This document shows, piece by piece, positions 8,783 through 14,562 of a DNA stretch of 64,000 nt. Numbering within the stretch: the first letter of the stretch is position 1; each line of letters opens with the position of its first letter. The notes beneath the pieces were generated by a model. That model was not told where the DNA came from, made no database searches, and saw only the letters and a program-made list of their open reading frames with translations. A program made the translations under genes and the position numbers. The stretch is from Halorubrum sp. CBA1229. GTDB lineage: Archaea > Halobacteriota > Halobacteria > Halobacteriales > Haloferacaceae. Where the stretch lies: contig NZ_CP054585.1 of NCBI RefSeq assembly GCF_003721435.2, forward strand, positions 620,001 to 684,000. Direction: 5' to 3'.

Positions 8783-9520
8783 GTGCAGAACGTTACGGAC
8801 CGGACGCGCAACCCCTTCGGGATGCGGCCGGACTGCCGGTCGTTCGTCCCCGGCTACGGCGACGCCAACGCCGACTTCCACGTCGTCGGCGACCACCCCG
8901 GCGTCCACGGCGGCGTCGAGGCGGGCGTCCCGTTCACCGGCGAACCGTGGTCACCCGCGTTCCTCTCGGCGCTGGCCGAGGGAGGACTGATCGCGGGGGT
9001 CGCCGAGGGGACGGCGCCGGACGGGACGGCGGCGACCGGCGAGACCACGGCGGCGACGAGCGACGAGACTGCCGCGGCGAGCGACGGAGGCGGTGAGGGC
9101 GACCCCGTCGCCGAGCCGATCCGCACCGAGCGCACGTACTTTTCGTACCTCCACATGTGTGTGCCAGACGGCGACCCGACCGCGGCGTCGTACGACGACA
9201 TGGAGCGGTTCTTCGACGCGGAGCTGCGCGCGATCGCCGCGCACGTTCTCCTGCCGGTCGGCGCCCGGGCGACCGAGCACGTCCTCGAACAGTACACGGC
9301 GCGGGCGTGGAAGACCGAGGTCGACATGGACGCGCTCCACGGCGAGGAGATCCTCGGCTCCGGGTGGCTCGTCCTCCCGATCAAGGACCCGGCCGAGTGG
9401 GAGGCGGGTGACGCCGACCGGCTCGTCGACGGCCTTCGGGAGCTGCGGTCGACCGACTTCCGTCGCGAGAGCGACCTCGGGCGCTTCATCGCGGGCAGCG
9501 ACCCGTACCTCGTTCGGTGA
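8783..9520 (+). CDS. uracil-DNA glycosylase family protein
   Basis: 245 residues from a GTG start (VQNVTDRTRNPFGMRPDC) that is backed by a TATA box. The N-terminal part PGYGDANADFHVVGDHPGVHGG with GVPFTGEPWS corresponds to the glycosylase-fold opening, where family members have a G-x-x-P-G loop and the bound uracil pocket. HVLLPVGARATEHVL and EEILGSGWLVLPIKDPAEW form the later core strands, the latter where family members carry an H-P motif. A poorly conserved acidic and Ala/Thr-rich insert lies at about 75-115. Haloarchaeal homologues are annotated as uracil-DNA glycosylase family; catalytic activity is not proven, because the standard catalytic residues are not all evident. Confidence 0.7.
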   Translation: MQNVTDRTRNPFGMRPDCRSFVPGYGDANADFHVVGDHPGVHGGVEAGVPFTGEPWSPAFLSALAEGGLIAGVAEGTAPDGTAATGETTAATSDETAAASDGGGEGDPVAEPIRTERTYFSYLHMCVPDGDPTAASYDDMERFFDAELRAIAAHVLLPVGARATEHVLEQYTARAWKTEVDMDALHGEEILGSGWLVLPIKDPAEWEAGDADRLVDGLRELRSTDFRRESDLGRFIAGSDPYLVR

Positions 9521-9736
9521 TCGGTCGGCCTGCGAGGCGCGGATGCGCCGTTTCGACCGCGCGTCGACCACGGGCGCCGTTTCGACCGCACGTCGATCAA
9601 CTAGTCGGATGCGCGTGCGGTTTCCTCCCGCCTCCGGCCCGCGGATCGGTGTATCGAGATCGAATACGCCAGTTCGGTGCCTGATCGTCAGCAATAGCCC
9701 GACTGCGACAGTCATATTTGTCACTACTCCCCGAAT

Positions 9737-9742
9737 TTTATA
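9737..9742 (+). promoter_or_regulatory. orphan TATA box before the hairpin cluster
   Basis: TTTATA within GAATTTTATACC is centred 27 bases before 9766, exactly where the first hairpin begins. No protein start codon in a plausible frame follows it, so the transcript it predicts would be non-coding. Confidence 0.45.
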
Positions 9743-9765: not shown

Positions 9766-9850
9766 GACGCCCGAACGATCGGGCGTCGGCCGTAGGACTG
9801 GTACTCCATACGGCGGCTTGGTCAGCAGCGGCCCTCACGGGCCGTTTCTC
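9766..9850 (+). ncRNA. candidate small structured RNA with three hairpins
   Basis: Hairpin 1 (9766-9787) pairs GACGCCCGA with TCGGGCGTC around the loop ACGA. Hairpin 2 (9789-9814) pairs GCCGTAGGA with TCC-A-TACGGC, nine pairs with one bulged A and a 7-base loop. Hairpin 3 (9829-9844) pairs CGGCCC with GGGCCG around TCAC and is followed by TTTCTC, a terminator-like end. A TATA box stands 27 bases before hairpin 1. The implied transcript is about 85 nt, non-coding, and lies between convergent genes. No match to a tRNA or to C/D or H/ACA box RNAs is visible. Expression is inferred, not shown. Confidence 0.45.
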
Positions 9851-9919
9851 GTCGAAACGCGTCGAGCGCGCAGCGGCGGCGCCGGCGGCGAGAGCCGACC
9901 GGTGAGGACGGGGGTTGCG

Positions 9920-14208: not shown

Positions 14209-14562
14209 ATGTCTCTCCTACGCAGGCGGTGACAGACGACCCACCTAAAGCCTCGTTTTTCGCGTCGGCCGTCCGACAGTCGATCGATTTCGGCCGGGAG
14301 GCGGCGCGAGTCACAAGAACACGCTTAAGAGCCCCGACGGCGACAGCACGAACGGGAACAGCACAGCTGCAGATCCGACTCGCCGGGGCCTCTTTCGCCC
14401 GCGGCTTGGGAATGTAGCAGTGCACCGACGCCTCCGGCGTCGCGGCTCGGGCCGATCCGCTCGCGCGGACCGCCCCCTCGGACCCGCTCGACGCGAGCGG
14501 CCGACAGCCGCGCCGCGCGGAGTCGCGGTCACGTTGTGGTTGTGCCGTTCCAATTTCAGATA
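14209..14562. other. gap before rps15: possible long structured leader
   Basis: This 354-bp gap separates the divergent nhaC and rps15 genes. A plus-strand box CTTAAG (14324-14329) predicts a transcript start near 14353, giving rps15 a leader of about 210 bases, unusual where most mRNAs are leaderless. The leader holds three hairpins with 3-base loops: CGACGCC-TCC-GGCGTCG (14426-14442), CCGCTCG-ACG-CGAGCGG (14484-14500) and CCGCG-CCG-CGCGG (14508-14520). No start codon with good context lies in it before 14563. Confidence 0.4.

Follow-up and report, generated by a model that had tools for sequence, protein, structure and literature searches.

Locus, promoter and predicted RNA

The window analyzed here is a 64,000-nt stretch of the Halorubrum sp. 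CBA1229 genome (NZ_CP054585.1, positions 620,001 to 684,000, forward strand), in which a 399-bp gap between two convergent genes, ending at 9520 (+) and 9920 (-), holds a candidate small RNA (sRNA) gene (Table 1). A preliminary description had reported this gap, a TTTATA box and three hairpins of 9 pairs, 9 pairs with one bulge and 6 pairs, the last followed by TTTCTC, and our re-reading of the sequence located every one of these elements at the same positions.

Table 1. Coordinates of the sRNA candidate, its promoter and its upstream neighbor in the window
Feature	Position	Strand	Remarks
UDG-superfamily protein gene, HVO_1038 type	8783-9520	+	Pfam UDG, 2e-8; upstream neighbor
Upstream promoter element, ATATTTGTC-type	9711-9719	+	About 20 bp upstream of the TATA box; near-invariant in the genus
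TATA box, TTTATA	9737-9742	+	Read directly; TTTTATA near-invariant in the genus
Hairpin 1, predicted RNA 5' end	9766-9787	+	9766-9774 with 9779-9787; 9 pairs, 4-nt loop
Hairpin 2	9789-9814	+	9789-9797 with 9805-9814; 9 pairs, covarying stem, inner GGA/UCC pairs; one bulged A at 9808; 7-nt loop CUGGUAC at 9798-9804
Proposed target-binding site, GGACUGGUACUC	9795-9806	+	Hairpin-2 loop and inner stem
Single-stranded linker, GGCUUGGUCAG	9815-9825	+	One of the best-conserved RNA segments
Hairpin 3 and T-rich tail, terminator-like 3' end	9829-9850	+	Direct reading and fold; 9829-9834 with 9839-9844, 6 pairs; TTTCTC tail at 9845-9850

The predicted fold of positions 9766 to 9860 has an energy of -48.8 kcal/mol, compared with -35.9 +/- 3.3 kcal/mol for dinucleotide shuffles (z = -3.92), and none of 200 shuffles was as good. 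The RNA (9766-9850) contains neither ATG nor GTG, and the spacing of its core boxes differs between genera (4, 7, 8, 9 or 12 nt), which is unlike a reading frame and indicates that the RNA is non-coding; the earlier claim that no protein start fits is thus borne out. The gene is also present only once in its own genome, as had been stated. With a promoter, a structured product, no reading frame and a terminator-like end, the locus would qualify as an autonomous haloarchaeal intergenic sRNA gene.

Alignment of the sequences from the genus revealed that the promoter, the stems and the linker are conserved and that loop 1 and the flanks are variable. A T-rich TATA box with an ATATTTG/AATTGGC element about 20 bp upstream was found in all genera that were looked at. 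Genera other than Halorubrum have TTTTTA or a similar sequence as the TATA box, and a related upstream element, (A)ATTGGC or ATTTAG, precedes the T-rich box at 33 loci outside the genus.

Distribution and structural conservation

Of the 52 genomes of the genus, 51 contain the 145-bp stretch that begins with the upstream promoter element and ends with the tail. A first covariance model, built from 48 of these genus sequences, matches 117 of the 170 genomes and 19 of the 28 genera of the haloarchaeal family to which Halorubrum, Haloferax and Halonotius belong. A second model of 38 nt, comprising hairpin 2 and the linker and built across genera, matches 143 of the 170 family genomes at E <= 0.01 (133 of them at E 2e-5 or better), usually with one copy per genome. 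In an order-wide sample, strong matches to the 38-nt model were confined to this family; partial matches in other families fall in protein-coding or unrelated sequence and were rejected as homologues. None of the weaker matches inspected, four from this family and eight from others, looks like this RNA or lies by the UDG gene. An exact pattern searched over 85,000 species genomes occurred only in this family and in two bacterial contigs (L126 and L152), which are close to chance level (about 1.5 expected in 257 Gb by a hand estimate) and were not accepted as homologues. Downstream of the UDG gene in two more genera (L206, L207 and L208), strongly diverged forms of the RNA may exist; L206 has a promoter, hairpins and GATTGGTGCTC, and TGTCAGACC occurs in all three loci.

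No family in Rfam 15 reaches its gathering score for the sRNA. The best sub-threshold match, isrK (RF01394), is an enterobacterial family with a gathering score of 50, so that its 18.5 bits on the sRNA stretch are far below threshold and attributable to chance. Elsewhere in the window, positions 14352-14423 match the Rfam S15-Halobacteria ribosomal protein leader with 71.9 bits.

In the cross-genus alignment, standard pairs make up 84.8% of the cells of the hairpin-2 stem, compared with 77.9% after shuffling, and only 30-33% of cells pair when the stem is slid by one column. Changes on both sides of a pair number 21, against 8.0 expected from shuffles, and the covariation score (0.244 vs 0.140 shuffled) was reached by none of 500 shuffles. 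When the stem is slid by +3, 71.9% of cells still pair, and therefore an alternative register with the GGC of the linker is possible; one Halorubrum subgroup seems to use it. Outside the genus, hairpins 1 and 3 differ in sequence and remain hairpins, with median z values of -3.46 (control 0.11) and -2.60 (control about 0.1), respectively. Covariation, which had been proposed as a check on all three stems, is hence seen in stem 2, whereas hairpins 1 and 3 are retained as hairpins despite sequence change. As a comparative test, the preliminary description had named the keeping of the hairpins in relatives, and both close and distant relatives retain them, with compensatory changes. Together with the conserved promoter, this supports the claim of a complete sRNA gene of about 85 nt.

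In 77 of the 78 core sequences collected by a pattern search, which limited the loop forms that could be found, the loop core reads GACTGGTRCTC or GACTAGTGCTC. The same pattern required the form of the linker, which is GGCTTGGTCA or GACTTGGTCA in 78 of 78 sequences; in this pattern-selected set, GGCUUGGUCA varies only to GACUUGGUCA. Some genera have a changed loop (GUCAGGUGCUC or GAAGGUGCUC). Two structural roles of the loop were considered and rejected: a kissing homodimer through ACUGGU/ACUAGU, because the loops are AGUCAGG or AGUCUGG in one genus and GAAGG in another, none of them self-complementary, and a loop-linker pseudoknot, because its CUGG-UCAG pairing is destroyed by the CUAG variants.

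The UDG-superfamily gene precedes the RNA on the same strand at a distance of 161-453 nt (median 246) in 123 genomes, counted among the 133 that have the RNA at E 2e-5 or better. Conserved neighbors had been suggested as a further check; the upstream gene is conserved and the other neighbors vary. Such a constant arrangement could mean that the RNA derives from the UDG mRNA, as part of its 3' UTR or by processing, and regulates or terminates the UDG gene. We regard this as very improbable, for hairpin 1 is separated from the UDG stop codon by a conserved promoter, RNA and UDG gene lie on different contigs in one genome (G057, with no UDG gene within 1.6 kb upstream of the RNA), three genomes (G150-152) have a shortened RNA, with hairpins 1 and 2 kept and the linker lost, and no detectable UDG gene, and several other genera have a UDG gene followed by little room for, or no recognizable, RNA. 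From its own promoter and from these two groups of genomes, the RNA is regarded as a gene of its own, independent of the UDG gene. Our best explanation is that the UDG gene is a long-kept neighbor and not a partner, and it is not proposed to belong to the RNA system. The assignment to the HVO_1038 type is inferred from gene order; HVO_1038 is among the four UDG-family genes that have been listed (PMC9997560).

Two further observations concern these loci. In the AT-rich relatives G150-152 (L177; G150:C3:862126-862151), the linker, GGCTTGGTCAG, has been lost and a different hairpin follows. In G057 (C7, L219), tandem units of about 27 bp (GTTCGATCTTTCAGAATAACTGGTAG) follow the UDG gene at the place where the RNA would be expected.

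A candidate target and competing readings

Candidate targets were searched for with the 11-mer complement of the loop, GAGTACCAGTC, which has about six occurrences per Halorubrum genome. One site, at a start codon, is common to five of six Halorubrum genomes (the sixth was not resolved). The gene, located outside the window (G000:C1:736,665; locus L263), encodes a 90-aa MarR-like winged-helix protein (Pfam HTH_24), and GGACUGGUACUC is exactly complementary over 12 nt to its first codons, AUGAGUACCAGUCC, in these five genomes. Within them, GAGTACCAGTCC at the regulator start ATGAGTACCAGTCC is identical and the surrounding bases vary. When the Halorubrum RNA and the mRNA start are folded together, the predicted energy is 12.5 kcal/mol better than for the two folded separately. 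The winged-helix gene did not turn up in synteny scans around the RNA in four genera and was found in further stretches of Halonotius and Haloferax.

The pairing was examined in three RNA-bearing genera, Halorubrum, Halonotius and Haloferax, with the prediction that a changed loop would be accompanied by a matching change in the first codons of the orthologue; AGC for GGUGCUC loops was noted beforehand. The Halonotius loop, GGACTAGTGCTC, has two changed positions, for which the start ATGAGCACTAGTCC is expected. The Halonotius orthologue (L357, 82% identical) begins with exactly this sequence, and both differences, AGT to AGC and ACC to ACT, are synonymous. Among 1865 start contexts in about 1 Mb, this regulator start is the best for the Halonotius loop (-24.0 kcal/mol, vs -19.9 for the next), whereas the Halorubrum loop gives -17.0 kcal/mol and rank 9 for it. 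The Haloferax orthologue starts with ATGAGCACCACC, which fits over 8 nt only, with the rest mismatched (rank 28 of 843), and the orthologue in Natronorubrum, a lineage in which the RNA was not found, starts with ATGAGTACGACGAC. N-termini of the form MST(S/T) are common in this group of winged-helix proteins, so that a match over the first 7-8 nt is more likely to arise by chance, an effect that does not extend to the two additional compensatory positions. The predicted pairing of loop and regulator start is therefore well supported in Halorubrum and Halonotius and weak in Haloferax.

Two further conserved elements were observed. A second GAGTACCAGTC site, without an evident start codon, lies in a very conserved stretch of all six Halorubrum genomes (L254, L258, L262, L265, L267 and L281). 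The other is a conserved element around CTTTACCA in the 5' untranslated region of the winged-helix gene (L263 1400-1500, L357 and L284). Natronorubrum, in which the sRNA was not found, has it as well, and it therefore serves something else.

The reading that we favor, with a probability of about 0.6, is that of an autonomous single-copy trans-acting sRNA that would pair with the start of the winged-helix regulator mRNA and repress its translation. In the proposed mechanism, hairpin 2 would present its loop (CUGGURC flanked by GA/UC), and the 7-nt loop would kiss the mRNA first. The inner GGA/UCC pairs of stem 2 would then open, and 12 pairs would form from the last base of the regulator AUG to codon 5 (AUGAGUACCAGUCC in Halorubrum). 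The start codon would thereby be hidden, initiation blocked and translation repressed, and the conserved linker would provide another contact, with RNA or protein. If this reading is true, the start ATGAGCACCAGTC is expected in genomes with the loop GACTGGTGCTC, and ATGAGCACCAATC in those with GATTGGTGCTC. We give even odds to the wider proposal that this family-wide sRNA controls the conserved regulator through pairing of its loop with the start codon, maintained in many genera by coevolution of the loop and synonymous codons, and that the strongly conserved linker serves a second partner.

Under a rival reading, the RNA might act in trans on other or several mRNAs through the linker GGCUUGGUCAG, the loop or both, with the winged-helix match in Halorubrum and Halonotius partly coincidental or one of many. 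The very strong conservation of the linker, which the winged-helix target does not explain, and the match of only 8 nt in Haloferax speak for it. However, the own genome holds no exact 11-nt complement of the linker outside the sRNA gene, a comparison of the linker with the genome yielded no conserved start-site target, and the best duplexes that loop or linker forms with 16S/23S rRNA (equalled by 12-30 of 40 shuffled controls) and with the UDG mRNA are no better than those of shuffled sequences. Given also the two compensatory synonymous changes in Halonotius, we consider other targets possible but rather doubtful. As a separate observation, the linker complement (TGACCAAGC) is about 5-10 times rarer than the same word backwards in six Halorubrum genomes, which may come from codon usage or avoidance.

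A protein-binding RNA, whether scaffold, decoy or small RNP, with loop and linker as recognition sites, would fit the long conserved single-stranded linker that adjoins the invariant loop and bulge, as well as the variable sequences of hairpins 1 and 3. Recognition by a protein would not cause the loop changes of Halonotius to be matched in the mRNA, and H/ACA and C/D boxes are absent: the linker after hairpin 2 (GGCTTGGTCAGCAG, 9815-9828) lacks the ANA triplet that an H/ACA guide would have 3' of a hairpin with an internal pocket, and positions 9766-9850 contain neither the RUGAUGA nor the CUGA box that a C/D box RNA would have. We therefore judge this reading unlikely.

Relation to known haloarchaeal sRNAs

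The trans-encoded sRNAs of Haloferax volcanii, such as sRNA132, s479 and SHOxi, resemble the Halorubrum RNA in being intergenic and structured, with their own promoters and a length of about 100 nt, and they are presumed to act on mRNAs, as proposed here (PMC6560208, PMC8155600; SHOxi, PMC12482152). Haloarchaeal sRNAs have been reported to be poorly conserved, with 22 of 27 tested H. volcanii sRNAs found in that species only, and target prediction failed (PMC3956466). In contrast to these mostly one-species sRNAs, the Halorubrum RNA occurs in most genera of its family, and its candidate target covaries with it. The conserved H. volcanii sRNAs H225.2R, hts10 and htsf359 (PMC3956466) are numbered near HVO_1727, HVO_2213 and HVO_2520, not HVO_1038, and are set apart from the Halorubrum RNA by these gene numbers rather than by sequence. 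HM44_V of Haloferax mediterranei, a 38-nt RNA between HFX_1024 and HFX_1026 (PMC5852579), is likewise intergenic and similar in size to the conserved core, a comparison made by description only. A strongly expressed antisense RNA has been reported at a UDG gene, HVO_RS09685 (PMC5892119). The core sequence was absent from the open paper texts that were searched, and the RNA may have been sequenced previously and not recognized as a family.

If the favored reading is true, this RNA and the winged-helix regulator would form an sRNA-mRNA pair that can be predicted, in a tractable group of archaea, and would thus allow a test of the way in which archaeal sRNAs work at start codons when no Hfq-like partner is known.
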